Source: Simmondsia chinensis (Eukaryota; Streptophyta; Magnoliopsida; Caryophyllales; Simmondsiaceae). From it: 64,000 nt of DNA. The translations under genes were made by a program, and so were the position numbers. The stretch covers positions 24,265,172 to 24,329,171 of the forward strand of contig JAGTTD010000008.1 in NCBI GenBank assembly GCA_018398585.1, given 5' to 3'. Under the pieces are notes generated by a model. That model saw only the letters and a list, made by a program, of their open reading frames with translations, made no database searches and had not been told where the DNA came from. Position 1 is the stretch's first letter. Each line of letters begins with the position of its first letter. This document shows positions 3,121 through 35,865 of this stretch, piece after piece.

Positions 3121-3206
3121 TCAAAATATCAAAGGAAAACGTAACATAATACTTATTTTTATCAAAAGGATATTTGATGTATTATAATTTGCTGAACTTT
3201 TAATTA

Positions 3207-3530
3207 AGATAGGATCCGAGATGGGATCCTACTTATTGAATCCAATTTAACACAAATCCAATCCAATCACAATATTGAATCCCATAGTTATGAGATAGCT
3301 AGATCGCTATCCCGGATTGTATATATATGTAAAGTATAACCCTAATCGCAAGTATAGAAGAGGGAGGGGGGGGGGGGGGGGGGGGGGGGGGGTTAGGAGA
3401 GTACACTTATTTATACTAAGTAAGGCTAGTTAGTTATGATGAAGTGATGTCGGTACTGAAGTGGCTAGTTGATAAGCCTAGTTGAGCTGGGGAACCCGGT
3501 TGGCGAGTGGACGCAGTGCCATTCGTGACA
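3207..3530 (-). repeat. 3' LTR of gypsy B
   Basis: Aligns along its length with the LTR at 16836-17216: shared blocks include GATAGGATCCGA, CACAAATCCAATCCAATCAC, GTAAAGTATAACCCTAAT and GGCTAGTTAGTTATGATGA. It ends in CA at 3530. Compared with its partner, about 80 bp in the middle are replaced by a run of G. The first base pair is AG rather than TG. Confidence 0.92.
3366..3392 (+). repeat. Poly-G tract of 27 bases
   Basis: An uninterrupted run of 27 G inside the left LTR of gypsy B. The partner LTR has a mixed purine-rich sequence here instead. The run length may be unreliable in assembly. Confidence 0.9.
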
Positions 3531-3531
3531 A

Positions 3532-3552
3532 TACCCCCCATAGGACTTGACC
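3532..3552 (+). repeat. Left target-site duplication of the 5S-headed SINE
   Basis: A 21-bp segment (begins tacccccc, ends gacttgacc) repeated at 12226-12246 with 18 of 21 matches; all three differences are transitions. It overlaps the polypurine tract next to the 3' LTR of gypsy B, so the SINE entered the element at that tract and duplicated it. Confidence 0.85.
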
Positions 3553-3672
3553 AAAGAGGTTACCAACACACTGTCACCAGATCTTATTAAAACTCCGAAG
3601 TTAAGCGTGCTTGGACGAGAACAATATCAGGATGGGTGACTTCCTAAGAATACCTCACCCTTAGGTTGGAGG
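3553..3672 (+). mobile_element. 5S rRNA-derived SINE, left part (5S head)
   Basis: About 110 bp align with plant 5S rRNA from near its 5' end, including ACTCCGAAGTTAAGCGTGCT and GGATGGGTGAC. The three internal RNA polymerase III promoter parts of 5S genes are recognisable: box A (3598-3615), intermediate element (3628-3634) and box C (3631-3649). The 5S part fades out near 3660, and a short segment matching the RTE LINE tail (aggttgg, 3663-3669) follows. Copia C1 begins at 3673; the rest of the SINE resumes at 12107. Flanking 21-bp duplications show it moved as a unit. A diverged 5S gene alone would not explain the tail or the duplications. Confidence 0.82.
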
Positions 3673-5903
3673 TGTTGGGAAAAAGAATATGAATTTTGTT
3701 GAAAAATAAACTCTGATGCCGATTATTGGGTTCATAGTTTTCAACTATCGTCACAACAGTAGGCACCTATTAGAGCACTTAGAGTATGAGACTCTTCTCT
3801 TTACCTAAGCCCCTGGTCGGAGAGTCTAGTGACACCTCATGTGCGAGAGTTCCCGGGAATAGATTTATCTCTATAAACCCTTTGCCCTAATACTAGTTGT
3901 TGGGATAAATTTAAAAAATTCTCCTTAATTTTATAAAGTTTACACAGCGGAAGGGGTTTAGAATTCATAATTCTAACCTGTGTTGATTTAAAATTCCTAA
4001 TTTTAAATCTACAGTTTTAAATTTATAATTTAAATCTACATATCTAAATTCTTAATTTAGATCTACAGGCCTTTTACTCAAATACTTTCATAATAATACA
4101 TAAACTTAAACAAGCATAATAATGAATACTGTTAATAAATAGAAGAATAAGGAAAGAAGAACATATATGGAATTGCTCCAATAATAAAGAATACCAAGAA
4201 AATCGAGACCCCGCGATCTTCCACGCAATGACCTCGAACTACCCAGAGGGTGGGCTCCAAAAAATTTTAAACCGAGGAAAGAAAAATTTCAACCAAAATT
4301 TTTCTCTCCAATTAGGTTTCCGAAATAATTTTCAGAAACCCAAAAAATTAATTTCAATTGAATGCCAAACCTCTGGAATAGGTACCCCAATTTATAGTGG
4401 TGTACCGGAGCGAAATATAGGCTGATTTTTTATGTGGGATTTGCCCAGTTAAAATCAAAACGCATCGTTTCAGGTTAATAATGGTCAAAACGCCGCGTTT
4501 CACTTAAGCAAAAGCCCACATGTTTTTTGGCTTATCATGGCTTGCCATGTGGCGGCACGCGATTGGTCGGCGCCCAAAGGTGAGGATCATGCCCTGACAC
4601 GTGTCGTGCGTTGGTTGGCCGATACGCGTAGACACGGATTGATACCTGTGCGTGTATATTTTGTGATTTTTTTTTCTTTTTTTTTGGGCTTTGTTTCTCA
4701 CATGTAAAAATTCATCTTATGAATTTTAATTTTCCAAAATTATTTTATTTTATAATTTTTAATTTTTATTCATCTCATGAATAATGTTTGGCAAAATTAA
4801 TTTACCCATCTTATGAATAAATAATTCATCTCATGAATTCTTTAATATTTTTTCGATGGCAAAAAATATAGAGGCTTGCGCAGGGACCTCGGGGACAATT
4901 TAAATCTAGCTCCAAATGGGTTAAATTAATTATCTCATGAAATAATTTAATTACCATTTAATGAGACTTAACTCCACTAAATAAATCTCACTATACTCCA
5001 GACTTAAATTATTTATTCGATATCTCCCTAATGGACTGTATTTATGAGAAAAATCCCTCCACTAGATGTCAATGACAAAGGATAAATATAACCACTACCA
5101 TTATCCTTCTCACAGTTTCTCCATTAGTTACCGACTCTCCCTTCACTAAATAATTCATTTATACTTGAACATATTCATAGTATAAATTCCAATTGTCAAA
5201 CACTTAGAATACTTTGGCCAAAGTTTTTGAACTATTTAAATATTTGCGAATCACCTAAGGGGACATCTGTATCTCATAAGAGACTGTAAATTCCCTATTG
5301 AATACCCAATCCTTGTCACACTTCATGCCGCTATCCAGTGTACGTGGGATTTCAGTTATTCGTTTAGACCTTACTTATAGTATACCAAAGTAACTAATGC
5401 TCCATGTACAAGTGCATGATATCCTCAGGATTCAAAGTCGTCATTCAAACAGTACATCGTGAATCACTCATCTCCTATAGTAGTCTAGAAATAAGTAACC
5501 CACATGGTCCAACTCAGTGTGTCAATCTTATTAAACACACTAACCTAACACTTTTGGATCTCCATCCACAGGACCAAGATAAGTTATCTAAAGTATCACA
5601 TTATAGTCTTAACATACAAGTGATCCAAACTTGTCTTCGACTACGAGTCTTTCAAACAACAATCCATACCATTTGTTCGTAGTCTATTTGTGGCTTAGTC
5701 TCATAAACCACTTAGAACAAACATGTAAATTGCAGTCTGAAGACTGCACCCATCTCATGGATGTCTCCCAAAAGAAAACCACATGCAGTATAAATGCTCG
5801 CTTACACAAATTTAACTAGGAAATGACTGGGACTTCAATTTTATTTATTAATTAAAATAATATATTCAGAATAAATCTAGATTTCAGGACACTGCTCCTA
5901 ACA
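3673..5903 (-). repeat. 3' LTR of copia C1
   Basis: Starts TGTTGGGAAAAAG and ends CTCCTAACA. It aligns with 9867-12106 over its whole length. It contains several copies of the palindromic motif attcatctcatgaat and an AT-rich repeat of about 30 bp near 4000-4080. The first 222 bp (3673-3894) are missing from the related LTRs of copia F, which start at the internal TGTTGGGAT equivalent near 3898. Confidence 0.92.
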
Positions 5904-5918
5904 ATCTCCCACTTGTCC
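5904..5918 (-). other. Polypurine tract of copia C1
   Basis: On the minus strand it reads GGACAAGTGGGAGAT directly before the 3' LTR. It is the plus-strand DNA primer site. The same sequence occurs in copia E (50073-50087) and, less perfectly, in F (45936-45955). Confidence 0.85.
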
Positions 5919-5929
5919 TAAATTTAATT

Positions 5930-6960
5930 TATGACAAAGTCTATACTCACCCCTTTTAAGTTTGAACCAAAGGTCTACTGAGCCTAACCCTTAGTGAGCA
6001 CAATTAATCTATTGTGTAGTCAGCAATATAATACTGCTTGACATTCCTCTCACTAATGGCTCCCACTCCAAGGGTAAAGACATGCTTAGACGTCGAACGT
6101 CTATCATATATATTTGACTGGAAGTCTTAAAACAATATATCCAACTGGAACCAGCTCGTCACTTTAAAAGATCAGCATATAACTTCTAGTCCTTCTTAAG
6201 TACTGCAGAAGACGCTTCATTACCACCTGGAGCATCGGACCCAAGTTAGACTGACACCTGCTTACTGTACCACAGCATAGCAAATATCTGGTCTCATACA
6301 CAGCATGGCATACATGAGGCTCCCACTGCCAAAGCATATGGAATATTCCTCAACTATTCCTCATCTTGAGGTGCCATGGAATACTGCTCTAAAGAGAAAA
6401 AGGGACTCCATGCCTGAAAGGGAAAAAAAAAAAAAAAAAAAAAACCTTTCTTAGAGTCCTCCATGCAATACCTTGACAATATTTTGTCCATATAAGTGAC
6501 TGGAGAGAGATCCAACGTCCTACTCTCATGACCTTGCAGAAGCTTAATCCTAAGAGTAGAGTTGCCTTCTCCTATGTCCTTCATATCAAGCTATCCTGAC
6601 AACCACCCCTTTACAGCTAATGACACCCCTACATTATTCTCAATGAGTAGTATATCATTGACGTATAATACTAAGAAAGTCACTACTTTCTCTTAATATA
6701 GATGTACACTCATGGATCGATCAACCAATTGCTCAAAACTATAACACTTGATTGCTTCATTGTGGCTAAAGGGATCAGATTCAAAACCACGGTTAACAAC
6801 TAAGGCTCCCGCTATGAACCTGTCAGGTGTCCTGACAATCCTTCTACCACACCTAAGCTCTCGCGCGCCTGGAACATTCTCATTCCTATCAGTAGGTGCA
6901 TCTAATGCATCCATTATGTCTTAAGTTCTGTCTAACTGTTCGGAATTTTTGTCAATGTCC
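5930..6960 (-). pseudogene. Copia C1 reverse transcriptase remnants
   Basis: Two minus-strand pieces resemble copia pol. One at 6693-6914 starts MDALDAPTDRNENVPGARE and matches a segment of copia F at 46774-47001. One at 6354-6584 has the late RT block MKDIGEGNSTLRIKLL and TYMDKILSRY. The join between them deletes most of RT (from after AIK to near VTFLVLYV). A 22-base poly-A run (6423-6444 on the plus strand) interrupts the second piece as a phenylalanine run. Clearly non-functional. Confidence 0.8.
6423..6444 (+). repeat. Poly-A run of 22 bases in copia C1 pol
   Basis: Homopolymer inside the former RT/RNase H coding region; it looks like slippage expansion because the flanking minus-strand codons (SKKGF, then FPFQAWSP) otherwise match copia pol. 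Confidence 0.85.
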
Positions 6961-7259
6961 TTTTTATGCTATTTTATTTTTGCTTTTGTAGTTTACTTAC
7001 AAAATTCTTCTCTAAGTATTTCGCATTTTTCACGTATAGAAGGAGAAAAACATTAATAAATCATAAACACATGTTCCTTAGTAAATAAAAATTTTATTTC
7101 TTGTAATAAAGGTTCACAACCATATTCAAACTGAATAACAATTATTTGTCAAACCACATAAATCAAATTCATGTCCAATGCAAGGACAAATCAATAAAAA
7201 TTTTTAAGAAGCAAAAACAAAATTCTAACACTAAAATCTAAGCTATTGCTTCCTACTAC

Positions 7260-8160
7260 TGAGACTGCTACTCTTGTACAGCCTTTAGTTGTCAGGTACA
7301 GCGCCCATCATGTAGTCTCCTGGTTGGCCTGAGCCCCTGTAACATATTATAGACTTGGTCAGTTGAACCTGAGTCCACACACCGGGAATCTAGGGGACTC
7401 GCAACTGCACAAGGCTCAAATCAGTGTGATATCAACATACTTTCACCAGATAGTTTAGCAGTCTTTGCAGGAAGAGTAGCCATGTCCTTTACGTAGTTCT
7501 TTCCGCAAAAGTAACACTTTCCTTTTGCTGGCTTTTTGTTAGGATTAGTCCCTACACTAGCAACCTTGCATTTGCCTTTCTTTCCAGTCGGTCTCTTATT
7601 CTACCTGCTCCCACTAGTCCTCGATACCTGAGTCAAGTGGACACTCCCCTTGGCTCGCATAACACCCTCTGCTACCTGTAGCTCTTTCATCAGCTCAGGT
7701 AATGAATAATCCTTATTATTCATGGTGCAGTTTAGCTTGAACTGAGTGAAAGAGCTGGACAGAGAGCTGAGGATGATGTCCTGTTGACGCTGACTATCAA
7801 TAATAGCACCTATAATCTCCAACTTAGACAAGCACGCCATTATTTTCATGACGTGCTCTTGAACTGGGGACCCTTCTGACACCCTCATGCTCAAGAACTT
7901 CCCCATCAACTCTTGCCTAGATGCCCTATCTTGACCACCAAACATTTTCTTTAAATGTTTGATCATCTCAGCTACTGTTTCCATCTCAAGCATTTGATGC
8001 TTGAGTACATTGGTCACAGAGGCCAAAATGTGGCATCTGGCTAACTCATTAGCCTTATTCCAGCATTCATAATGCTCTTTAATAGCAGTTGTAGAATTAT
8101 TAGCAGGCACTGTAGGTCGAGCTTTAGTGAGAACAAACTTATATGAGTCATGTATAATGC
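7260..8160 (-). pseudogene. Copia C1 gag with protease remnant
   Basis: The minus-strand frame 8110-7601 (169 codons) is a copia gag of the UBN2 type: KEHYECWNKANELARCHI, then LKKMFGGQDRASRQELM and VSEGSPVQEHVMKIM. In-frame codons continue upstream of the first ATG as DSYKFVLTKARP, so the true start is upstream and has been lost. Beyond 7600 a zinc knuckle is reduced to CYFCGKNYVK without the His and last Cys. A protease motif VDSGSTD remains near 7360-7380. Integrase is absent. Confidence 0.85.
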
Positions 8161-8249
8161 AACGGTATATATTCTTTCAAATTTAGCATACACAATAAGT
8201 CATATATCCGCCAAATTGTACTATCATGCATACAACGATGACCCAAACA

Positions 8250-8645
8250 CACCACTCCTTACTCCCTAACTGCGGGGTTGCACGAAACTAGCTCGGGTGA
8301 GAACTATTCTCAATTAACCTGTTTTCTTGTAACCCTTACTAAATATGATTGGCTCACCACTTTACTTTAGTTTCTAACATGACACAACAGAGCTTCTCGG
8401 GGAGGCTAATGCATCACACTAGTCAAGTGTAAACCATTACTTAAACCTCCATATAAATATACAAAATACTCAACGGCAGCATGGTCGCATCGCTTCTTTG
8501 CATTTTGGTTTATCACAACAGAAGTCTAACCCTATAATCTGCAAACCAGCATCCTCCGCAGGAAGGTCTATCAATCCACTATACTGCTAGACCGATAATG
8601 AAGACCGTGAGGTTATAACAATTGAAACCTCGCTCCCACTTGATT
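8250..8645 (-). other. Conserved copia leader segment
   Basis: Non-coding stretch upstream of gag in copia C1. Read on the minus strand it contains AGTGGGAGCGAGG, GTCTAGCAGTATAG, GGGTTAGACTTCT, and TTAATTGAGAATAGTTCTC in this order. The same ordered blocks appear twice in copia E (40983-41463 and 41464-41880). No ORF accounts for the conservation. Confidence 0.7.
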
Positions 8646-8686
8646 TTTATAACTAGTGGTTTTTAATTAACTTGTATATATAACCT

Positions 8687-9357
8687 GGATTATCTCATAA
8701 AATCTCATTCTAAAATTAACCAAAATTAATTAATTAATTCAAAATATTATCATTTTACAATATCGATTATCTCATAATTTTGCTTTAGAATCTTACTCCA
8801 AATTTATTCAATAAAATTAATTAATTAATTTTACCTTTTAAAAACGTTACCATGGATTATCTTATAACCTATTATTTAGAATCCCATTCTAAAATTAAAT
8901 AAATTAATATAAATTAATTTAACTATTTTAATTTAAAATAATACCAAAATTTAGATTATTTTATAATCTATTTTTAGAGTTTAATTCTAAAATTAAATTA
9001 ATTAATAAAATTAATTTTATTTAAAATAGTAATGTCCTAAAATTTAGACTATCACATAGTCCACTATAGAATCTCATTCTAAGAGTTAAATAAGCTTAGA
9101 CTATCAAATAGTCTAATTCAGAATCTTATTCTAAAATTTAATTAATAAAATTAAGATTTTATTTTAAAAATAAAGTTAACGATTTAGACTATCTTATAGT
9201 CTATTTTAGAATCTTAATCTAAGACCAATTTAAAAATAACTTTTATTTAAAATAATACTGATTTACAACTTAGATTATCTCATGATCTAATTTAGAATCT
9301 CAATCTAAAAGAAAATTAATTAATAAAATAATTAATTTATAATTATTATGTAATTCA
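8687..9357. repeat. Degenerate tandem repeat in the copia C1 leader
   Basis: About eight units of 55-95 bp. Each carries a short palindrome of the type GATTATCTCATAATC or GACTATCTTATAGTC, followed by AGAATCTNATTCTAAAATTAA and an AT-rich spacer. Units start near 8687, 8763, 8853, 8950, 9044, 9097, 9183 and 9270. It lies between the primer site and gag, in the RNA leader. Confidence 0.75.
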
Positions 9358-9851
9358 GTACTGACGTCTACACGTCCCAAAAATAAAATAATAAAAAAAT
9401 TTTAATTTTTTTATTGCTGACGTCAGCATCTGCTAACAATTTTTTTAAAATTAAAATATTTAATTTTAAAATAAATTAAATCTAATCTCATTAGATTAAT
9501 TTTATCCATTATTATCAAAAATATTTGAATCTAATCTTATTAGATCAATTTTGTCCGATTTCGTAAATCATGACTGAGAATGTACAATCTCATTATACGA
9601 ACAACATAATCACAAATTTATGGGTTGTTCCTAATTAATGATTAATTCATTAATGATTTAAATAATTTAAATCCTTACTTTAAAACAGTCTAATTAACAA
9701 TTAATTACATTAATGATTTAAACAATTCAAATCACTAATTCAAACAAAATTTTCCTTCTTTAATAAAATCTCTATATTATTAAATCGTAAATCTATTTAT
9801 TTTTGATTTTATTATATCTATTTATGTATATTATGAATGTAATCAGAGGCT

Positions 9852-9864
9852 GGCTTTGATACCA
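9852..9864 (-). other. Primer-binding site of copia C1
   Basis: Reads TGGTATCAAAGCC on the minus strand, one base different from the canonical initiator tRNA-Met site, two bases from the LTR. Confidence 0.88.
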
Positions 9865-9866
9865 AT

Positions 9867-12106
9867 TATTAGAAAAAAGAATATGAATTCTGTTGGAACA
9901 TAAACTCTGATGCCGACTATTGGGTTCACAATTCTCAACTATGGTCACAACAGTAGGCACCTATTATAGTACTTAGAGTAGGAGGCTCTTGTCTCTACCT
10001 AAGCTCCCGGTCGGAGAGTCATGCTTCGTGACATCTCACATACTAGAGTTCCCAGGAATAGGTTTATCTCTATAAACCCTTTGCCCTAATACTGGTTGTC
10101 GGGATGAATTTCAAAAATTCTCCTTAATTTTATAAAGTTTACGCAGTGGAAGGGGTTTAGAATTTATAATTCTAAACCTGGGTTGATTTAAAATTCCTAA
10201 TTTTAAATCTAGAGTTTTAAATTCATAATTTAAAACTACAGATCTAAATTCTTAATTTAGATCTACAGTCCTTTTACTCTAATACATTCATAATAATACA
10301 TAAACTTAAACAAGCATAATAATGAATATTGTAAATAAATAGAAAAGCGAAAAGAATAAGGAAAGAAGAACATATCTAGAATTGCTCTAATAAAAAAGAA
10401 TACCAATAAAATAGAGACCCCACGAACTTCCACGCAATGATCTCGAGCCGCCCAGAGGGTGGGCTCAGAAAAATATTAGACTGAGAAAAGAAAAATTTCA
10501 GCGAAAATTTTTCTCTCCGATTAGGTCTCCAAAACAATTTTAAAAAACCCAAAAATTTAATTTCAGTTGAATGCCAAACTTTTGAAATAGGTTCCCCTAT
10601 TTATAATGGTATACCAGAGCGAAAAATAGGCTGATTTTTCATGTGAAATTTGCCCAGTTAAAATCAAAACGCATCGTTTCAAGTTAATAATGGTCAAAAC
10701 ACCGCGTTTCACTTAAGCAAAGGCCAACGTGTTTTTTGGCTTATCATAGCGTGCCACATGGCGACACGCGATTGGTCCGCGCCTCATGCCCCGGCAGCCC
10801 AGCGCGCGACACGTGTCACTTGTTGGTTGGCCGATACTCGTAGACGCGGATTGATACCTGTGCTTGTAAATTTTGCGATTTTTTTTCTTTTTTCTTTTGC
10901 TTTGTTTCTGATATGTTAAAATTCATTATGAATTTTAATTTTTCAAAATTATTTTATTTTATAATTTTAAATTTTTATTCATCTCATGAATAATGTTTGG
11001 CAAAATTAATTTACCCATCTCATGGATAAATAATTCATCTCATGAATTCTATAATATTTTTCGGATGGCAAAAAATACAGAGGCTTGTGCAGGGACCTCG
11101 GGGACAATTTAAATCTAGCTCCAAATGGGTTAAATTAATCATCTCATGAAATAATTTAATTACCATTTAGTGGGACTTAATTCCACTAAATAAATCTCAC
11201 TGCACTCCAGACTTAAACTATTTATTCGATATCTCCCTAATGGACTGTATTGATAACTAAAACCCCCTCCACTAGATGTCCATGACAAAGGATAAATATA
11301 ATTACTATCATTATCCTTCTCACAGCTTCTCGATTAGTTGCCGACTCGCTTTTCACTGAATAATTCATTTATACTTGAACATATTCATAGTATAAATTCC
11401 AAATGTCAAACACTCAGAATACTTTGGCCAAAGTTTCAGAACTATTCAAATATTTGCGAATCAACTAAGGGGACATCTGTATCTCATAAGAGATAGTAGA
11501 TTCCCTATTGAATACCTGATCCTTGTCACACTTTACGCCGCTACCCAGTGTACGTGAGATTTCAATCATTCGTTTAGACCTTACTTATAGTATACCAAAG
11601 TAACTAATGCTCCATGCACAAGTCCAGAATACCTTCAAGATTTATATTCGTTGTTGAAACATTACAACGTGAATCACTCATCTCCGATAGTAGTCTAGAA
11701 ATAAGTAAACCACATGGTCCAACTCAGTGTGTCAATCTTATTAAACAAACTAAACTAACACTTTTGGATCTCCATCCACATTACCAAGACAAGTCATCTA
11801 AAGTGTCACGTTATAGTTTTAACATACAAGTGGTCCCAACTTGTCTTCGACTATGAGTCTTTCAAACAACAGTCCATACCATTTGTTCCAAGTCTATCTG
11901 TGGTTTAGTCTCATAAACCACTTAGAACAAATATGAAAATTGTAGTCTGAGGACTACACCCATCTCATGGATGTCTCCCAAAAGAAAACCACATGTATTA
12001 TAAATGCTCGCTTACACAAATTTAAACGATTGGTACTTCAATTTTATTTATTAATTAAAATAATATATCCATAATAAATCTGAATTTCAGGACATTGTTC
12101 CTAACA
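9867..12106 (-). repeat. 5' LTR of copia C1
   Basis: Partner of 3673-5903, about 2240 bp. Its plus-strand start has drifted to TTATTAG; its end CCTAACA is intact. The two LTRs differ by scattered substitutions and small indels, so the insertion is not recent. Confidence 0.92.
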
Positions 12107-12225
12107 AGAGGCACTTAGAAACAACCTCTCTTCAGGGCTAATACCCTAAAGGGGGAAGGCTGCGTATATCCCCCCCTGCTTGGGCGGGAGCCCTTGAGGC
12201 ACTGTGTATGCTATTGATTTGCTTT
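12107..12225 (+). mobile_element. 5S rRNA-derived SINE, right part (RTE-like tail)
   Basis: Continuation of the SINE split by copia C1; 12107-12111 is the copia target duplication. The tail has the blocks ACAACCTCTCTTCAGGGC, GGAAGGCTGCGTA, a C-run, and GGGAGCCCTTGAGGCACTG. These blocks recur in the same order at the 3' ends of the RTE LINE (27264-27418) and of the truncated RTE (35711-35865). The end has decayed from a TTG repeat to tattgatttgctttt. The 21-bp duplication follows at 12226. The tail also resembles what I recall of the 3' end of the plant Au SINE family. Confidence 0.82.
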
Positions 12226-12246
12226 TACCCCCCGCAAGACTTGACC

Positions 12247-12395
12247 CTTGTCCACGAGGGTCAAAATGTGGGAAACGGAGTTGGAGATCGTAAAGGAATT
12301 CCCAGGTGGCGTCATCACTGGATTGACCCACCCACTGAACCTGTACTTAAGTAGTGGCTAGGCATATGCGAGGAACCATTCAACGATCTAATATG
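12247..12395 (-). pseudogene. Gypsy B C-terminal chromodomain
   Basis: Minus-strand codons read VGQSSDDATWEFLYDLQLRF then PHFDP, matching the end of chromodomains in plant chromovirus integrases (an aromatic and acidic WE motif followed by an RFP-F block). It is the last part of pol, ending just before the polypurine tract where the SINE inserted. Chromodomains of this group are thought to steer integration toward heterochromatin. Confidence 0.8.
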
Positions 12396-12649
12396 CGCTT
12401 TGGCTAAGGAGCGAGAGGACTGGCAGCGACATATTCAGAAGCAGAGTAGTGTAAGCGGGAACTATGCTGCATCATTTGAGGAGCGAAACATGTATAGTGT
12501 GCTAAATGGTGGCATGGGCAGGGAGATCAAGTTTGTAGGCGATTGGCCCGACACGATCAAGGATTTGGAAAGGGCCATAGAACCGTGGAGCAAGGTTGTG
12601 GAATTGGCGGTTGGCGACACTGTGTTGTTGGTAAGATTGAAGTTTTAAC

Positions 12650-13474
12650 CAAACAAAGTCTCTAACTTGGAATTCTTGATCAGAGTGATGGTGATTTGCC
12701 TACTGTTTCATGCGGTTCTGTGCGGGATGGAGATGATGTTTAAGGCGACTTCTAGATTCTTCCCGAGCAGTGAGGATACAGTCTACCACATCGATGGCTA
12801 CGGAAGATGAACTGGCGGAGATTTCCCATAAAGGACCTCATAAGGAGTCGCCTAAGAGGCTGAATGATAAGAGGTGTTATATCGCCATTCAACTAACGGG
12901 AGCCAGCGGGGCCAATCGCGAGGACACTCGCCAGCCATACAACGTAAATACGTATTAAGGCATCTGTTGAGAACCTCCGTCTGACCATCGGACTGTGGAT
13001 GGTACAAAGAGGAAAGATTTAGTTGAGTTCCGAGGCGAGAAAAGAGTTCTTGCCACAGAGTACTTAGGAAAATCTGATCACAATCACTGATTATGGAATT
13101 AGGCAATGCATGTAAGCGGTATATCTAATCCAAGAAGAGTTGCGCAACATCAGCATCCGATTACGGATGTCATAAAGCATGGAAGTGGGCTTACTTACTT
13201 AGGCAATCCACAACCATAAGGATTACCGTGTACTTAGAAGAGGACGGAAGCCCGTCTATAAAGTCAAGAGAGATACTACTCCATACGGTACTCAGAATAG
13301 GTAATGACTGCAGTAACCCGGGTGAGGCAACCTTCTCGTACTTATTTTGTAGACACATGGCACGGTTACAAACTTACTCTTGGATGTCTTTTTTAAGGCC
13401 AAGCCAGTAAAAAAGCGTTTGGGCTCGCCTATATGTTGCTTCAATTCCGGAATGCCCTCCTTGAGGGGAGTCAT
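12650..13474 (-). pseudogene. Gypsy B integrase
   Basis: The catalytic core is clear at 12852-13106: SDCDQIFLSTLWQELF, then LNLSSLYHPQSDGQTEVLNR with the catalytic Glu, and GECPRDWPRWLPLVEWRYN. The upstream zinc-binding part (13292-13474) is visible as KEGIPELKQHIGEPK and FFTGLALKK, with the usual residues partly lost. Frameshifts separate the pieces. Confidence 0.85.
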
Positions 13475-13611
13475 GTGTCCAAAGGAGGATTGATAGAAGC
13501 GCCCACAGCGTCGCTCCCATGGTGGCGGAGTTGATCATGATGCTAAGTTAAAGGAGGGTGGGACAGAGGTTCTACCAATTTGTTACTGATAATCTGGCTG
13601 AGACCCTGATC

Positions 13612-14163
13612 TTAGGGCCAAGAAGACTGTAGGACATCATAGAAGTCATATGAGATAGCTGATAACGCCATGCATAAGACCTTTGAACTTGATAAGCAGG
13701 ACAAAGCATCAACAACCCAGTTCTTGGCACCCTTCGTGTAAACGATATCATAATCGAATCCAATCAAACTAGAAAGCCATAAAAACTGAAGAGAGGTGGG
13801 TAGGCACTGTTTTAACAGAAATTTGAGACTCTGTTGGTCTTTGCACATGATGAAGTGGCGGCCAGTCGGGTACTGTTGCCATTTCTCAACTGCGAAGACC
13901 ATGACGAGAAGTTCACGTTCATATATCGACATAGATTGGTGCCTTTGGGACAAAGTCTTGCTAATAAAGGTGATGGAACATTCTTCCTGCATAAGAATGA
14001 TGCTAATGCCAAATCTAGAAGCATCCATTTCAATAACAAACCTCTTTCTAAAGTTGGGCAGCGCTAATACCGGAGCAAATGTTAGAGCGCGTCTGAGGCA
14101 CTCGAAGGCAACTTCAACCTCTTGATTCCACACGAAGTTATCCTTCTTTAACAACTCAGCCAA
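13612..14163 (-). pseudogene. Gypsy B RNase H
   Basis: A minus-strand frame of 183 codons: FVWNQEVEVAFECLRRALT, FVIEMDASRFGISIILMQ, YERELLVMVFAVEKWQQY and FDYDIVYTKGAKNWVVDALS. These are the RNase H-like blocks that follow RT in gypsy pol. The usual active-site Asp in the EMDAS block is present. Confidence 0.88.
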
Positions 14164-14235
14164 AGGGTGAGCAATGATTCCATAATACTAAATAAAATGC
14201 TTGTAGTAGCCGGAGAATTGCAGGAACCCTTGGAG

Positions 14236-15115
14236 TTACTTTATTGTTGAAGGTCGGGGCCACTTAACTACTGCCTCCAACCATTTGGGATCCACTGCGA
14301 CCCCCTCACCCGATATAAAGTGATTGAGATATTCGATTCGGCAAGACCCAAAAGTGCATTTCTCCTTTTTTACCACGAGATGATGTTGGCGGAGGACACC
14401 CAGTACCGAACATATATGCATCAAGTGTAGGGACCAAGTGGCGCTGTAAATAAGTATATCGTCAAAGGAGACCAGCACATATTGACAAAGGAAGGAGTGA
14501 AATATATCATTCATAAGGCTTAAGAAAGTTGATGGCATGTTGGAAAGGCATGATGGTAAGCTCATAATGGCCTGAATGAGTACAGAAAGCTGTTTAGTAA
14601 ATGTCTTCGGGCACCATATGGATTTGCCAGTATCCAGACTTGAGGTCAAGCTTGGAGAAATATGAAGCTCCACCCAATTCGTCTCAGAGTTCTTCCACGA
14701 TTCGAATGGGAAACTTGTCCTTGATCGTCATTTTATTCAAGGCATGACAATCAACACATAGCCACTAAGATCCATTTTTCTTCTTGACAAGGACAACTGG
14801 CGAGGCAAAAGGCGAAGTACAGTAGCGATCACGCCTGCCGTGAACATTTATGAATTAGGGCATCAATGATATCCTTTTGGAACACAGGTATCAGTAAGGG
14901 TAAAGATTAACCGGGTTGCTTCCTTCCTTGAGACGGATGCAGTGGTTAAATCCGGACCTAGCTGGTGAGGATTTCGTACTCGGAGTGAACACCTCATCCA
15001 GTTCTTTCAAAAGTGCTTGAAGAGCAAGAGGGTCCTCTACGTAGTCCAACATGATGGTATGTAAATGGAGGAGCGAGGGTTGATCATGGTGATCAACCAT
15101 TAAGGCATAAAACAA
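14236..15115 (-). pseudogene. Gypsy B reverse transcriptase
   Basis: Minus-strand fragments carry the RT active-site block VSFDDILIYSATW (within 14236-14673) and downstream CSVLGVLRQHHLVVKKEKC. The segment 14891-15115 (DYVEDPLALQALLKELDEVF) is the linker leading into RT. Several frameshifts are needed to join them. Confidence 0.85.
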
Positions 15116-15193
15116 GGCCGGCTGACTGAGAAGCGTTGAGAAGGTGCTTTTCAGGACAGCCTTGAGACCAGTATTACGGATTCCGCATAAGGT

Positions 15194-15520
15194 CTATTCC
15201 CGGTCAGCCAAGCGGAACTTCATAACCAGCGCATCAAGGTTCCAACAAACCTCCCCTAAGGAATGGAGCCATTGGATGCCTAAGACCATATCACAGCTAA
15301 ATAGAGGAATCAGCAATACATTCGAAGAGAACAGAGCATTCTGAAGTGTCCAACGAAAACCGCAGCACAAACACACGCACGAGATCTGTTTACCATCAGC
15401 AATTATGATCGGCAGTTGGTGATCACCATCAACCAAACACCCCAGGCTATGGCCTAGGTGGACATCAAGAAAGTTGTGGGTACTCTCGCTGTCTACGAGG
15501 ATACTCGAGGGCCACTTGCC
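15194..15520 (-). pseudogene. Gypsy B protease
   Basis: Reads VDSESTHNFLDVHLG (about 15460-15505), an aspartic protease motif with Gly changed to Glu in the usual DSG triplet, followed by CDMVLGIQWLHSLGEVCWN. The substituted glycine predicts loss of activity. Confidence 0.8.
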
Positions 15521-15639
15521 ATAGTGGCCTTACACCCTCATATTCTGACACTGAGTCATTCCATGGAGAGCATGTATGGATATATGGGGGTTTGGAGTGG
15601 GTTTAGGCTCGGGCTCCAACAATTCATAACCTAACTCAT

Positions 15640-16790
15640 CATCTGAAGCATTGACCGAAAACATTTGTACTAAGCGTCACATTGGGCACAAATGACCTGG
15701 CAAGAAGGACTCACAACAGTAAAAACAAAGGTTTTGTGCCCATAGATCATCAATGTCAGCGGGTGATAAGCCCCGCATAGAACGAGCAGCTGGCGAGATC
15801 GGGTGGGCGGAGCTGGTAATGCTAAGGGTCTAGTTGGAGATAGCCTATTTGGCATATTTTGAGTCAACTTTGCTGAGTTACTTGGTAAGGGTAGAATTGG
15901 AGTAGCCTTGCCGGGGTTCTTTCCAGTCACTCGTTCAATATACTCACAATTCTTCTCTTGTAACTAAGCTAGAGTGATGGCCTCTTGTAACGTGTTTGGC
16001 TTAAATAACTTAAGCCATCCCACCAAATCCTTACACAGCCCTCCCATGAAGACGCCAACTCTCTGTTCTTCATTTAACTCACTATGGCTAACCAAGGGCT
16101 CAAACGCGGTTAAGTACTCCTCTAGACCACTCCTTTGCCTAAGTTTAGTTCGCTTAGTGAGCGAGTTCTGGGCGGTTTTGGAGAATAGCCTCCTAATCTC
16201 AGCTGAATACACATCGCAAGGGATAGCTTCTTCAATGGGCAATGATTGTTGATAGGCATTATGCCAGCCAAGGCCGGTGCCTTCCAGAGCCACACTAGCC
16301 AACATCATTTTTAGATCCTCAGGTGTTTGATCAAGGATGAAATACCGTTCACATTGATATAGACAATTCACCACATCACTCCCATTAAACCTTGGAAAGT
16401 CTATTTTCGTAGCGAGTTGGGAACTAGTAGTTACCTCTCTGGTGGTTTTGCTCGGGAACAAGGGAAAGTGATCAATGCTCCGATTCTTGATCTCCACTAC
16501 GCTATGATGGCGGCTGGTGGTGCTGGTACATCAATTCTTCTTTAACCAATAATTAATAAAAATTAAATATCTGAATAAGTATCCTAGTGGTGAAGCAGAG
16601 AGAAAGGCCCTCGCTCTACGGTCTCTGTTCCATTGGTGTAGTTCATTCCTACGATTGTCCTCATCTGCAGTGACAGTTCATTCATCATTTGTCGCATCTT
16701 AGCCATAGATTCAACCAAATCATCACAACGCCGATCAAGCTTTTCATCCAACTCCCTCATCGACATTCGCTGTCTAGTTTCGTCAGCCAT
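15640..16790 (-). pseudogene. Gypsy B gag
   Basis: The likely start is the ATG complement at 16790, 30 bp inside the primer site (MADETRQRMSMRELDEKLDR). The main gag domain at 15964-16497 includes IDFPRFNGSDVVNCLYQCER, LEEYLTAFEPLVSHS and EQRVGVFMGGL. A zinc-knuckle remnant with a CFC...GHLC pattern lies near 15660-15730. Stops and frameshifts separate these parts. Confidence 0.85.
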
Positions 16791-16820
16791 TTATACCAAT
16801 AATGCTGAGCCGAGGAGCTT

Positions 16821-16833
16821 CCCTCTGATACTA
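16821..16833 (-). other. Primer-binding site of gypsy B
   Basis: Reads TAGTATCAGAGGG on the minus strand, a mutated initiator tRNA-Met site, two bases from the 5' LTR. Confidence 0.85.
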
Positions 16834-16835
16834 AT

Positions 16836-17216
16836 TGATAGGATCCGAAATGGGATCCTATCTACTCAACCCAATCTAGCACAAATCCAATCCAATCACA
16901 AGACTAAATCCAATAGCTATCAGAAAGCTAGACTGTTGCCCCAGATTGTATATGTATGTAAAGTATAACCCTAATTACAAGTATAGAAGGGGGGAGAAGA
17001 TCTAGAAGAAGAAGGGGAGAGATAGAGAAAATTTGGGGGAGAGAGAGATAAACACATATCATCAACATGAGCAAAACCCTAGGAGAACATACTTATTTAT
17101 ACTACTTAAGGCTAGTTAGTTATGATGAGGTGGCGTTGGTGCTAACGTGGCTAGTTGATAAGTCAAGTTGAGCTGGGGAACGCAGTTGGCTAGTAGATGC
17201 AGTGCCATTAGTAGCA
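16836..17216 (-). repeat. 5' LTR of gypsy B
   Basis: Partner of 3207-3530. Plus-strand termini TGATAGGATCC...TAGTAGCA; 381 bp. Followed by aatta, identical to the bases left of 3207. Confidence 0.93.
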
Positions 17217-23820: not shown

Positions 23821-24058
23821 CAGGTCAGAGTATCAACTGCGCACCAACCCCAGGTTTGATCTATCCTTTATTACAGTAGGGTAGTGTTTTAATTTATCAT
23901 TGTTGGGTACTTTTCATTTGGTTCTTTCTCCTAACATTATTTGTCATTATTATTTTGAATACAGTGATCTTTGATTGTGGTGGTACTTTCATGCATTCCT
24001 GTTATAATAAGTTTCTTGTCTATGTCCATCACTTACCCATGATAGTCACAGCTAGTGG

Positions 24059-25624
24059 ATGAACGTTACCAGTTATGGAACTCAAAGATTGAGGCCATCT
24101 TCAAAGAGGTTGGGGAGGGGGAGGGCGGGGCAGAAGGGGACAGGGAACTTGAGACTAGGGGCACTAAATGTCGGGACACTAACGAAGAAGAGTTTCGAGG
24201 TGGCCCAAATGATGATGAAGAGAAAGATCAACATCCTTTGTCTGCAAGAGACTAAATGGGCTGGCGCGAAAGCCAAGGATGTGCTGGGGCACAAGCTCTG
24301 GTATGCGGGCAAGGTCAGAGGAAGGAATGGAGTTGGTATCGTCGTGGATAGCAACCTTAAGGATAAAGTAGTTGGAGTATCAAGGGCTGGTGATAGGATC
24401 ATAAGTATCAAGATGGTCCTAGTTGGAGAGGTATTGAATGTAATCAGTGCCTACGCACCTCAAACTGGACTAACGAAGCATGTGAAGGCAACATTCTGGG
24501 AGGACTTAGACATAATGATGCAAGGCATACCCTAGGCCGAACAAGTGATGATTGGCGGGGACTTTAATGGGCACGTTGGCACGACGGATGATGGTTACGC
24601 TTCTTACCACGGAGGATTCGGTTTTGGAACCAGGAATGCAGAGGGCAAAGCCCTACTAGACTTCGCGGTCACATACGACCTAACGGTTTCCAACACCTTC
24701 TTCAGGAAGCGTGAGCAACACATCATCACATACCAAAGCGGTGGGACAAGAACATAGATTGACTACATACTATTAAGGAAAAGGGTGCAAAGAGACCGTA
24801 GGGATTGCAGGGCTACCCCAGGAGAAGACCTGTCTACACAACATATGGTGCTGTGGGAGGATATACAGGCCAAGAAGAGGGCCAAAAGAATCTGCAAACC
24901 CGGGCAGACGCATACCTACTGGAGGGATTTGAAGGGGGAGAAGTATAGGGCATATAAGGAGAGAGGGGAGGCCGAGCTCGGGTGGGACTTTGAGGGAGAT
25001 ACAAACCAGATGTGGAACCAAATGGCCCAAAAGATCAGAGAACTGGCATGGGAAGTTCTCGGCACGTCAAAGGGAAGGGCGCCAAGCAACAGAGAGTCAT
25101 GGTGGTGGTGCGACGAGGTCCAAGAGAAGATTAAGGTGAAACAAGTTTGTTTCAAAGAGTGGGATTACAGCAGAGATGTGGATAAGAGATATCGGTATCT
25201 GCAAGCCAGGAGAGAAGCAAAGAGAGCAGTCAGAGAAGCATAATCAAGAGCTTATGAAGGCTTCTACAAAAGGCTGGAGACCAAGGAGGGTGAGAGGGAC
25301 TTATATAGAATCGCCAAAGCTAGAGAAAGGAAGACTAGGGACTTGGACAGAGTACAATGCATAAGAGGGCAAGATGGACAGGTACTCATGGATAGGCAAC
25401 CGATTAAGGCTAGGTGGAAGACGTACTTCCACGACCTGTTCAACAAAAAAAGAGGCACAAAGATATCCTTAGGTGATGTTCAAACATCAGAGGAGCATCA
25501 GAACAACTGTTACTGTGGGTCAGTTAGCCCCGAGGAAGTCATGGAAGCCATGAAATTCATGGGAAGGGGTAAAGCAGTTGGCCCGGATTGCATACCCATA
25601 GAAGTATGGAAAGACCTTGGATAG
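24059..25624 (+). pseudogene. RTE LINE endonuclease and RT N-terminal region
   Basis: One frame with four in-frame stops (24533, 24755, 25241 and 25622 areas). The APE endonuclease blocks are clear: LNVGTLTKKSFEV, CLQETKWAGAKAKDV with the catalytic Glu, NGVGIVVDSNLKDKVVGV, SAYAPQTGLTKHV, and GGDFNGHVGTTDDGY with catalytic Asp and Asn. The segment 24785-25620 covers the spacer and the first RT block (GKAVGPDCIPIEVWKDLG). The element provides target nicking and reverse transcription in living copies; this one is dead. Confidence 0.92.
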
Positions 25625-27020
25625 AAGGGCATCAGTTGGCTGACTAAACTATTTAATCAAATCCTTATGGGGGAGAAGATGCTTGGGGAATGGACCTGGG
25701 GAATGGAGGACAAGCACAGTGATCCCGATATATAAGAACAAAGGCGACATTCAGAGTTGCGCCAACTATCGGGGTATCAAACTAATGTGCCACACTCTGA
25801 AGTTGTGGGAACGGGTCATAGACAGGAGGTTAAGACAATAGACAGAGGTGTCCGAGAGCCAATTCGGATTTATGCTTGGGAGATCTAAAATAGAAGCCAT
25901 CCACATCCTTAGGTGAACGATAGAGCAATACAGGGAGAGGCAAAAGGACCCGCACATGGTTTTTATTGATTTAGAGAAGGCATATGATAGAGTGCCAAGA
26001 GAGGTCCTTTGGAGAGTTTTGGACAGGAGAGGTGTCCCCGTGCCATACATTCGAGCCATTAGAGACATGTATGAGGACGCAAAGACTATGGTGTGTACAG
26101 AAGACGGGGAGCCAGACGCTTTCCTGATAATAGTTGAGGTACACCAGGGGTCTGCTTTGAGCTCCTATCTATTCATTCTGATTATGGACGAGCTCACTAG
26201 GCACATCCAATGATGTGTACCTTAGTGCATGCTTTTTGCAGATGACGTAGTGTTGGTGGGGGAGTCGCGGGAAGAGGTACATGAGAAGCTGGAACTATGG
26301 AGAAGGGTACTAGAGTCGAAGGGTTTACGACTAAGTAGAGCCAAGACCAAGTACATGGAAGTCAAGTTCGATACCGCCACCACGCCTAGCCGGGAAGATG
26401 TCAAGATTGGAACTGAGGCCATATCGAAGAAGGAGAGCTTCAGGTACTTGGGGTCCATGGTACAAAACAACGGCGAAGTTGACGAGGATGTCAACAACTG
26501 GATTAAAGCGGGATGGCATAAATGAAGGATGGCCTCCGTGGTATTTTGTGATAGAAAGTTCCCCTTGAAGCTAAAGGGAAGTTACTATAAGACGGTTGTG
26601 AGGCCAGCCATGACCTATGGGGCGAAGTGCAGGGCGATGAAACAACAGCACACACAAAAGATGGAGGTGGCGAAGATGCGAATACTAAGGTTGATGTGCG
26701 GACAAACGAGGAAGGATAGGATTAGAAACGACGTCATAAGAGGCAAATTGGGCGTAGCCCCCATTGAGGATAAATTGAGGGAGCAACGTTTGAGGTGGTT
26801 CGGACATGTTAGGAGGAGACCGGAAGACGCCTCAGTTAGGAGGTGTAAACAGCCCCTTACTACACTAGGCAGGAGAGGAAGAGGCAGGCCAAAAAAGAGA
26901 TGGCTGGAGACGATCCAACAAGACCTCATCCACCTAAACCTTCGGGAAGAGATGGCCTTAGATAGGGCCCAATGGAGGGCTAGTATAGGGGTTATAGATG
27001 CTCTAGCTAGAGTAAGGTAG
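25625..27020 (+). pseudogene. RTE LINE reverse transcriptase and C-terminus
   Basis: The frame changes after 25683-25708, where a 13-bp segment is duplicated in tandem. Downstream: [50 protein letters not shown], the active-site block CLLFADDVVLVGESREE, YLGSMVQNNGEVDEDV, and the C-terminal LRWFGHVRRRPEDASVRR. Stops remain at several places. The C-terminal part from about 26720 matches the truncated copy at 35150. Confidence 0.92.
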
Positions 27021-27263
27021 TTTAGCTTATTAGTGCTAGGCCTTGACAGCCTCCGAGCGTACTTAGGTGTATACATGTTCGCATGAGCAGGTACTTGCCC
27101 GCCTACCTGCCTACCTATCCTGTGATTTCCACTTGGTTTTTTCTTTCTGCTTGATGTGGCTTGCTTAAGTTTGTGTTTTTGCTCGCTGTGTGTCCTGCCT
27201 TACTCATGCGTTGATGATCTCCTGCTGACAGGTCATATGCGCTATGCTGCGGACCAACCTATC

Positions 27264-27328
27264 AGGTTGGGGGTCCTCGAAAATAGCCTCTCTTCAGGGC
27301 ACCCCCTGAAGGCGGAAGGCTGCGTACA

Positions 27329-27366
<38 letters not shown>

Positions 27367-27418
27367 AAAGACCCTGCTTTTGTAGGAGCCCTTGCAGGCA
27401 CTGGGTTTGTTGTTGTTG
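27264..27418 (+). repeat. RTE LINE 3' tail, shared with SINE elements
   Basis: Begins aggttgggggtcc, contains GCCTCTCTTCAGGGC, GGCGGAAGGCTGCGTACATC, a 35-base C-run (27330-27364), TAGGAGCCCTTGCAGGCACT, and ends in TTG repeats. It would be the template site for RTE reverse transcription; equivalents lie at 12107, 33449 and 35711. Confidence 0.85.
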
Positions 27419-27431
27419 TTGTTTTAAACCA

Positions 27432-33448: not shown

Positions 33449-33554
33449 TCTCAGACACAACCTCTACCCTCAAGGGGTAAGGCTGCGTACATTTCACTCC
33501 CCCTCATACCCTGCATTGGCAGGAGCCCTTGTGACACTGGACTTGTTGTTGTAC
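33449..33554 (+). mobile_element. Truncated SINE or RTE 3'-tail insertion
   Basis: A 106-bp insertion flanked by a 17-bp perfect duplication (33432-33448 and 33555-33571). It holds only the shared tail: ACAACCTCTACCCTCAAGG, GGTAAGGCTGCGTACAT, GGCAGGAGCCCTTGTGACAC and TTG repeats. It could be a 5'-truncated SINE or LINE; there is not enough head to tell. Confidence 0.83.
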
Positions 33555-35492: not shown

Positions 35493-35865
35493 TTCTCTAC
35501 TATCTCTACTTTCTCTCTCTCTATCTCCTTATACTCTTTATACGCCCTATTTTCTCTATTTGATTGCATTATGTCGCATGTAAGATCTCTCCCCTAGATG
35601 CTTGTTTGCTTTTGCCATTCGCATTTGATGCTATGCTTCCATGCTTACTTGCTTACATGGTTTATATAATTCTCATGATCTCTATGCTTTCCACGCTTTT
35701 CATATCTTTCAGGTTGGGGGTCGTTGGAAACAACCTCTCTTTAGGGTCCTACCCTAAAGGGGTAAGTCTGCTTATACACCACCCCCCCCCCCCCCCCCCC
35801 CCACCCCCTGCTTATGTGGGAGCCATTCAGGCACTAGGATTGTTGTTGTTGTTGTTGTATGTTTA
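35150..35865 (+). mobile_element. 5'-truncated RTE LINE
   Basis: Corresponds to the last part of the RTE at 26720-27418: codons ISYIYR-type flank apart, it shows the block matching DKLREQRLRWFGHVRR (as DKLREQHLRWFGHVRR) and then the non-coding tail with TTG repeats. Flanks atctatatatgta (35137-35149) and atctatttatgta (35866-35878) are a 13-bp duplication with one change. It contains two C-runs (35463-35492, 30 bases; 35782-35802, 21 bases). Confidence 0.87.

Follow-up and report, generated by a model that had tools for sequence, protein, structure and literature searches.

A nested set of retroelements was identified in the analyzed window, a stretch of 64,000 nucleotides from Simmondsia chinensis. 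A match to 5S rRNA lies on the plus strand at positions 3550–3667 (Rfam RF00001, model positions 1–120, 40.7 bits in cmscan with a cut-off of 38) and is followed by the first part of an RTE-like tail (GGTTGGAGG, 3664–3672, plus strand), which was recognized by aligning SINE copies with RTE 3′ ends. The tail is interrupted by a copia element and resumes on the plus strand at 12112–12225, where it aligns to RTE 3′ ends and finishes with the letters TTGCTTT. Without the copia element the two parts form a unit of 234 bp, within the SINE length range of 100–700 bp given in the accessible text of PMC10886601. Direct repeats of 21 bp flank the unit on the plus strand at 3532–3552 and 12226–12246 (18 positions identical, three transitions). 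The sequence-only reading had joined the two halves into a single SINE with these repeats, and both the unit and the repeats were recovered here, with one adjustment at the left boundary: positions 3551–3552 may count as SINE as well as repeat because CC opens most other SINE copies.

As that reading had also stated, the head keeps the 5S promoter boxes, which, judging from 5S genes, we take to lie at 3599–3613 (box A), 3616–3621 (IE), and 3629–3646 (box C). Compared with the host 5S gene, the window copy differs at 0 of 15 positions in box A, 1 of 6 in IE and 4 of 18 in box C, and its box C differs from the majority of its own family at 2 of 18 positions. No tRNA family in Rfam matched positions 3450–3800 up to an E value of 1, and ARAGORN identified no tRNA gene within the window. 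An identity as a tRNA-headed plant SINE, such as TS, was ruled out by the 5S head and the missing tRNA match.

The copia element that interrupts the SINE, an LTR retrotransposon in minus-strand orientation (3673–12106), was recognized by its LTRs (3673 to about 5904 and about 9868 to 12106, 90.5% identical over 2208 columns) and by a minus-strand gag of the copia type (PF14223, E = 3e-20). Its target-site duplications, read on the plus strand, are GGAGG at 3668–3672, within the first part of the SINE tail, and AGAGG at 12107–12111, identical at four of five letters. The SINE in turn inserted at the end of a Ty3/gypsy element on the minus strand, whose LTRs occupy 3195–3529 and about 16825–17216 (82% identical), with pieces of gag, reverse transcriptase and RNase H on the minus strand within 13615–16530. 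As a possible empty site, a further LTR of similar sequence in the window was considered and rejected: being the second LTR of the gypsy element, it matches the left flank only.

A degenerate RTE-type LINE is located on the plus strand at 24056–27426. It comprises an endonuclease-like ORF (24056–24535, a weak match below the cut-off), a reverse transcriptase at about 25500–26520 (PF00078, E = 4.1e-34) and a 3′ end (27259–27426) that carries (TTG)n; another RTE-type 3′ end with a terminal (TTG)n was found by sequence alignment at 35706–35859 (plus strand). The blocks that the SINE tail had been said to share with this LINE were confirmed: the tail block 12119–12176 matches 27281–27336 at 84% and the second block matches 27372–27426 at 76%. 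When aligned with 15 host RTE 3′ ends, the window tail reaches 79% identity with its best match over 120 columns, and the tails of 12 copies together with the window copy reach 72–85% over 120–131 columns. The head sides of five copies, in the same comparison with RTE, are identical at just 26–29 of 62 positions. A hairpin in the tail lacked covariation support (double change in 1 of 12 pairs). The LINE in the window, named earlier as the candidate for mobilizing the SINE, has a reverse transcriptase domain; this particular copy, however, is unlikely to be an active partner because stop codons interrupt its reverse transcriptase.

Overall, 9,153 matches to the 5S–RTE junction pattern at up to three mismatches were identified in the host genome (831 Mb), compared with none for the reversed control. 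Nuclear rbcS, matched in this genome as separate exon-like pieces, indicates a plant. These copies are referred to as family I, the family of the window copy. The tail was present in all 39 other scored matches found by the head only, and the same fuzzy tail test was passed by 2 of 2,000 random window places; the pattern in the window exceeds chance. Target-site duplications, counted at a score of 9 or more, were found in 49 of 63 copies (69 loci minus 6 duplicates) against 8 of 315 pairs with swapped flanks. They are mostly 12–23 bp long and, in the majority of the 49 copies, adjoin the 5S head; a clear duplication is missing from the remaining 14 copies. The expectation of the sequence-only reading, many copies with a common junction and duplications of their own, is thus borne out. 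The first family I copies, taken as the 40 best scorers among 3,062 and among 5,349 candidates, are by this choice biased towards the window copy. A second family I sample was drawn, like the family II loci below, from the listed exact pattern matches, which cover some of the contigs. Twelve of its 20 loci contain both ends, one (L167) lacks the 3′ motif, six are 5′-truncated, and one (L152) is full length, yet was missed by the motif. All 12 loci with both ends have duplications, compared with 7 of 240 controls. Of the six 5′-truncated copies, L151 and L153 carry perfect duplications near the truncation (16/16 and 14/14, at distances of 7 and 2 nt), and the other four (L150, L156, L159, and L166) lack one there. 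The exact family I patterns had no match in viral and prokaryote contigs, which says little because the element belongs to a plant.

All six SINE loci tested of the 69 score as 5S in Rfam (60.3–77 bits). The family I majority is identical to the host 5S gene at 15 of 15 positions in box A, 6 of 6 in IE and 16 of 18 in box C, and head cores equal the host gene at 76–77 of 80 positions. The pairing of helix I in the head showed no covariation beyond shuffles (106 of 500 shuffles were equally good). A run of at least three T within 4 nt after the tail was found in 46 of 60 family I copies, and 34 of 60 have at least four T within 8 nt, with TTTT absent there from 26 of 60; an internal TTTT is absent from 56 of 63 copies. 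A second 5S stretch on the same strand within 900 bp was seen at 2 of 63 family I places (477 and 685 bp), in flanks of about 500 bp or 1,500 bp.

A second family, family II, has a fuller 5S head than family I and shares the (TTG)n end of the LINE, whereas family I ends in a T-run. The family II junction has 4,611 matches in the host genome and none in the control. Family II was encountered with a 5S pattern meant to favor Cassandra over family I: among 100 listed of 10,376 matches, 34 places were fetched and all of them, with junction and RTE body in 34 of 34, are family II SINEs (five without the usual 5′ start, one having been retrieved without that start). None of these 34 is a Cassandra element, and the rest of the genome may hold Cassandra. 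Of 2,000 random window places, 3 passed the junction test and 8 the body test. Target-site duplications were present in 23 of 26 family II copies against 4 of 520 controls; the count covers 26 of the 34 loci, and those left out are L149, two loci that lack the end motif and five that lack a 5′ motif. The majority sequences of both families are close in length to the window copy.

The two families are linked by their heads and by their junction. The core of family II is identical over 80 nt to that of family I subfamily B, the two having three common differences from the present host 5S genes and subfamily A having four (the subfamily medians were taken from 26 and 28 of 64 rows, of which one was shared and 11 were left out), and both families join the RTE sequence at one and the same place (AGGTTGGGGG). 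These two observations speak against the alternative that the families represent separate 5S–RTE fusions, or that family I is a family II element with an exchanged RTE tail. In its favor, the tail letters CTCTCTTCAGG are common to family I and the sampled RTE elements, whereas family II has CTCTCGGCAGG there. Furthermore, a tail tree including 15 RTE 3′ ends close to the RTE copy in the window and one more from the window recovers families I and II each as a supported group (99/96 and 96/90), and groups I plus II against RTE with a support of only 77/25, which does not resolve a single origin. Such separate or exchanged tails are a minority possibility that has to be taken seriously. The simplest history, which is not proven, is that 5S RNA was fused once to an RTE 3′ end, giving rise to a family II-like founder from which family I may have been derived by a short hinge deletion and a new 3′ end.

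Cassandra elements have a 5-bp target-site duplication. A further alternative reads the 5S part as a Cassandra element (TRIM), complete or reduced to a solo LTR, with the RTE tail as its neighbor. Cassandra is the sole plant 5S retroelement named in the accessible parts of PMC10886601 and PMC10853983, its 5S core carries the same promoter boxes as the SINE head, and the two family I places with a second same-strand 5S stretch would fit. However, the 5S directly joins the RTE tail in every scored head match of family I and every fetched family II place, 61 of 63 family I places are without a second same-strand 5S within 900 bp, and the duplications are mostly 12–23 bp with the 5S head next to them in most duplicated copies. 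No examined copy showed 5S in paired LTRs together with a tRNA primer site and a 5-bp duplication, leaving Cassandra a very improbable explanation. It is just as difficult to believe that 5S rRNA pseudogenes scattered through the genome, or segmental copies, came to lie beside RTE fragments by accident. The heads do score as 5S rRNA in Rfam, but the junction is fixed across the 9,153 matches, copy-specific duplications enclose head and tail together, 46 of 47 high-scoring 5S genes among those listed are located on one contig (C8) in arrays, and none of 36 distinct 5S gene stretches contains the junction or the tail. Horizontal transfer of an animal 5S–RTE SINE could be considered since animals have the same architecture, a 5S head with a BovB tail in Ped-1 of the springhare (PMC3747384) and a 5S head with an RTE tail in HaSE3 of a moth (PMC3272025), as described in the accessible portions of these sources; the likeness is one of architecture, in other hosts. 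Against such a transfer, which seems highly unlikely, the head core follows the host 5S genes at 76–77 of 80 positions and the tail matches host RTE elements in a comparison restricted to host sequences.

The element in the window is therefore, with high confidence, a SINE composed of a 5S head and an RTE LINE 3′ end, flanked by 21-bp duplications and later split by copia, that was likely transcribed by RNA polymerase III and likely copied by RTE. Its dispersed composite copies, variable duplications, LINE-shared 3′ end and short length are those of a SINE, and the 5S-homologous head with boxes A, IE, and C would place it in the SINE3 class. Judged from these boxes, transcription by RNA polymerase III and TFIIIA would likely start from the internal 5S promoter of the head, and family I transcripts may end at the terminal T-run. 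The RTE enzyme would recognize the tail common to SINE and RTE, and target-primed reverse transcription by the RTE protein in trans, to which the common tail points, would likely produce new SINE sites.

According to the portions of the literature available, members of the SINE3 class (zebrafish SINE3, SINE3-1_TC, HaSE3, and PxSE4/5) likewise combine a 5S head with boxes A, IE, and C, a LINE tail, short duplications and many copies. The members named there are from animals, and an abstract mentions a fungal one, in agreement with the sequence-only reading that 5S-headed SINEs are known mainly from animals, whereas here both the 5S head and the RTE tail are of plant type. A feature of HaSE3 is that its body and tail are also found in a tRNA-headed SINE. 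In the accessible text of PMC3747384, the three land-plant SINE/LINE pairs tabulated are all tRNA-headed, and the TS SINE of tobacco has an RTE-1_Stu tail that ends in TTG repeats, comparable to the (TTG)n of family II, but differs in having a tRNA head instead of 5S. The parts of two further sources that concern 5S promoters in SINEs ascribe them to animals (PMC10853983) or to vertebrates and some insects (PMC7245038). No plant 5S-headed SINE was found in the open-access literature, a scope that excludes Repbase, Dfam, and SINEBase; a plant 5S-headed SINE is probably new, with 5S-headed SINEs recorded mainly from animals. As described in part of PMC10886601, Cassandra is likewise a plant retroelement with a 5S promoter region but differs as an LTR element (TRIM) with the 5S in its LTRs, whereas in the SINE the 5S part is continued by an RTE tail and the duplications are longer and variable. 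A SINE-type donor of the Cassandra 5S region is proposed there, and the corresponding part of PMC10853983 prefers capture near a 5S array.

It seems probable that the SINE represents a plant-born SINE3 lineage, built from the plant's own 5S rRNA and RTE LINE and convergent with the animal 5S–RTE SINEs, that has amplified into two families totalling about 13,760 junction matches, one family having exchanged (TTG)n for a T-run, and that is of the kind suggested as Cassandra donor. The 5S–RTE fusion thus occurs outside animals too, likely with an independent origin. SINE copies may inflate 5S annotations because they score as 5S rRNA in Rfam (all six tested). Families I and II form a natural comparison of T-run and (TTG)n ends. 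A plant example is now available for the class of elements proposed as donor of the Cassandra 5S region, and the existence of a plant 5S–RTE SINE therefore makes that proposal testable by a comparison of heads across species.

The 5S rRNA head of the SINE at 3550-3667 was a full-length match to the Rfam 5S rRNA model (40.7 bits, curated cut-off 38 bits), and the blocks of the tail at 12112-12225 were colinear with two LINE 3' ends (27259-27426 and 35706-35859). Head and tail are separated by a copia element with LTRs of ~2.2 kb (90.5% identical), a minus-strand gag of copia type and a 5-bp duplication within the SINE (GGAGG/AGAGG), and the direct repeats that bracket the whole SINE, at 3532-3552 and 12226-12246, are identical at 18/21 positions. 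The sequence-only reading of a 5S head and an RTE LINE tail, split by a copia element and enclosed as a whole by 21-bp direct repeats, was thus borne out. A short segment at 33465-33552 is also related to the RTE/SINE tail.

A degenerate Ty3/gypsy element on the minus strand surrounds the SINE (3195-3529, 12247-17216). The SINE lies just inside one of its LTRs, because pieces of gag, reverse transcriptase and RNase H (within 13615-16530, minus strand) are flanked by LTR-like stretches at 3195-3529 and about 16825-17216 that are 82% alike; the insertion site would be a putative polypurine tract. The nesting gives the insertion order gypsy, SINE, copia, and the LTR identities (82% for gypsy versus 90.5% for copia) are consistent with this order.

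The composite 5S-RTE structure was established by a search of the 831 Mb host genome, in which the window is located on contig C3. The host is marked as a plant by RuBisCO small-subunit hits split into exon-like segments on C3 and C29. The earlier reading had called for many copies sharing one 5S-tail junction, for variable flanking duplications and for a tail that aligns with host RTE elements, and all three were found. When the best 40 of 3,062 candidates from a head-only search were scored, one was the window itself and the same tail continued behind the head in the other 39 (39/39, by eye and by a fuzzy test passed by 2/2,000 random window places); the best 40 of 5,349 candidates were scored in a joined-element search. 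A 34-base junction pattern of family I, the T-run-ended family of the window copy, had 9,153 matches with at most three mismatches (reversed control 0), and Rfam called 5S in 6/6 SINE loci tested. A direct repeat scoring at least 9 flanked 49/63 distinct family-I copies versus 8/315 swapped-flank pairs, leaving 14/63 copies without one. In a second family-I sample (20 copies from exact junction hits), duplications were present in 12/12 copies with both ends versus 7/240 swapped-flank pairs; six of the 20 were 5'-truncated, and close to the point of truncation a perfect duplication was present in two of these and none in the other four. Target-primed reverse transcription yields both variable duplications and 5' truncation.

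Median divergence from the subfamily majority was 8.7% in one family-I subfamily (26 rows) and 5.4% in the other (28 rows), and single copies diverged by as little as 0.8%, showing a mixture of ages; the window copy (14.8%) is old.

A pattern designed for Cassandra, a plant TRIM with 5S in its LTRs, matched 10,376 places, which include family-I copies and probably also 5S genes. Cassandra identity was rejected for the 34 places fetched (of 100 among the matches listed), in all of which (34/34) a 5S head runs into RTE sequence. These loci represent a second family (family II), in which the 3' end of the 5S part is more complete; 32/34 have a (TTG)n-type end. The family-II junction pattern had 4,611 matches (control 0), giving 13,764 for the two families together, based on two different patterns. 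In controls, junction and body were found in 0/36 distinct 5S gene stretches and at 3/2,000 and 8/2,000 random places, respectively, and duplications flanked 23/26 copies versus 4/520 controls. Family II looks nearer to the founding 5S-RTE fusion than family I. A single origin of both families is favoured because they share the core and the same RTE breakpoint; the tail tree (support 99/96 for family I, 96/90 for family II and 77/25 for both against RTE) does not decide the matter.

The 5S head itself is derived from cellular 5S RNA. The core matched the host 5S gene at 77/80 positions in family II and family-I subfamily B and at 76/80 in subfamily A. At what we take to be the positions of box A, IE and box C, identity to the host gene was 15/15, 6/6 and 16/18 for the family-I majority and 15/15, 5/6 and 14/18 for the window copy, and 10 of the first 24 positions of the majority were identical. 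Host 5S genes on contig C8 read TAAGAT...CTCTTGG and both SINE families CAGGAT...CTCCTGG, the latter presumably nearer to the 5S form of other plants. High-scoring host 5S genes lie in arrays on C8 (46/47 among the matches listed, one on C29), with tandem genes at about 4.69 and 6.41 Mb. Two fetched loci (L004 and L016) contain a second same-strand 5S stretch 685 and 477 bp away, respectively, probably further SINE copies.

The window LINE encodes a reverse transcriptase (PF00078, E 4.1e-34) that contains stops, has a weak, below-cut-off endonuclease match and ends in (TTG)n. According to one study, RTE LINEs of flowering plants terminate in a (TTG)n or (TTGATG)n repeat and nearly all L1 LINEs in poly(A) (PMC3747384); on this basis the LINE, and with it the SINE tail, was assigned as putatively RTE-type from the LINE 3' end. 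Across 120-131 aligned columns, the tails of 12 of 63 SINE copies and of the window copy each shared 72-85% identity with the closest of 15 host RTE 3' ends, and the head side matched one RTE at 26-29 of 62 positions in five copies. Within the RTE 3' region, the 5S-RTE junction falls at AGGTTGGGGG. RTE and SINE tails contain a C-rich tract of variable length, with anything from a few C to some 30 or more (window 27326-27362 and fetched loci such as L101, L005 and L038).

In the mechanism we propose, the 5S head would recruit pol III via its internal promoter, family-I transcripts would terminate at the T-run behind the tail, and the RTE enzyme would act on the tail common to SINE and RTE. The T-run comprises at least 3 T within 4 nt in 46/60 family-I copies and at least 4 T within 8 nt in 34/60, and internal TTTT is absent from 56/63. 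A tail hairpin was predicted (whole-sequence z-score -2.15), and no covariation supporting it was found.

By comparison, the architecture equals that of animal 5S-RTE SINEs, namely Ped-1 of the springhare (PMC3747384) and HaSE3 of a moth (PMC3272025). SINE3 elements are placed in vertebrates and some insects (PMC7245038), a study on Cassandra speaks of such promoter gain by SINEs "in animals" (PMC10853983), a fungal 5S-headed SINE is described (PMC5063351), and in one plant paper 5S-homologous SINE3 are said to occur "including plants", although the reference cited there is a Cassandra paper (PMC3095306). No plant 5S-headed SINE was found among the titles and abstracts listed in searches of the open-access literature, and a 5S-headed SINE in a plant is probably new.
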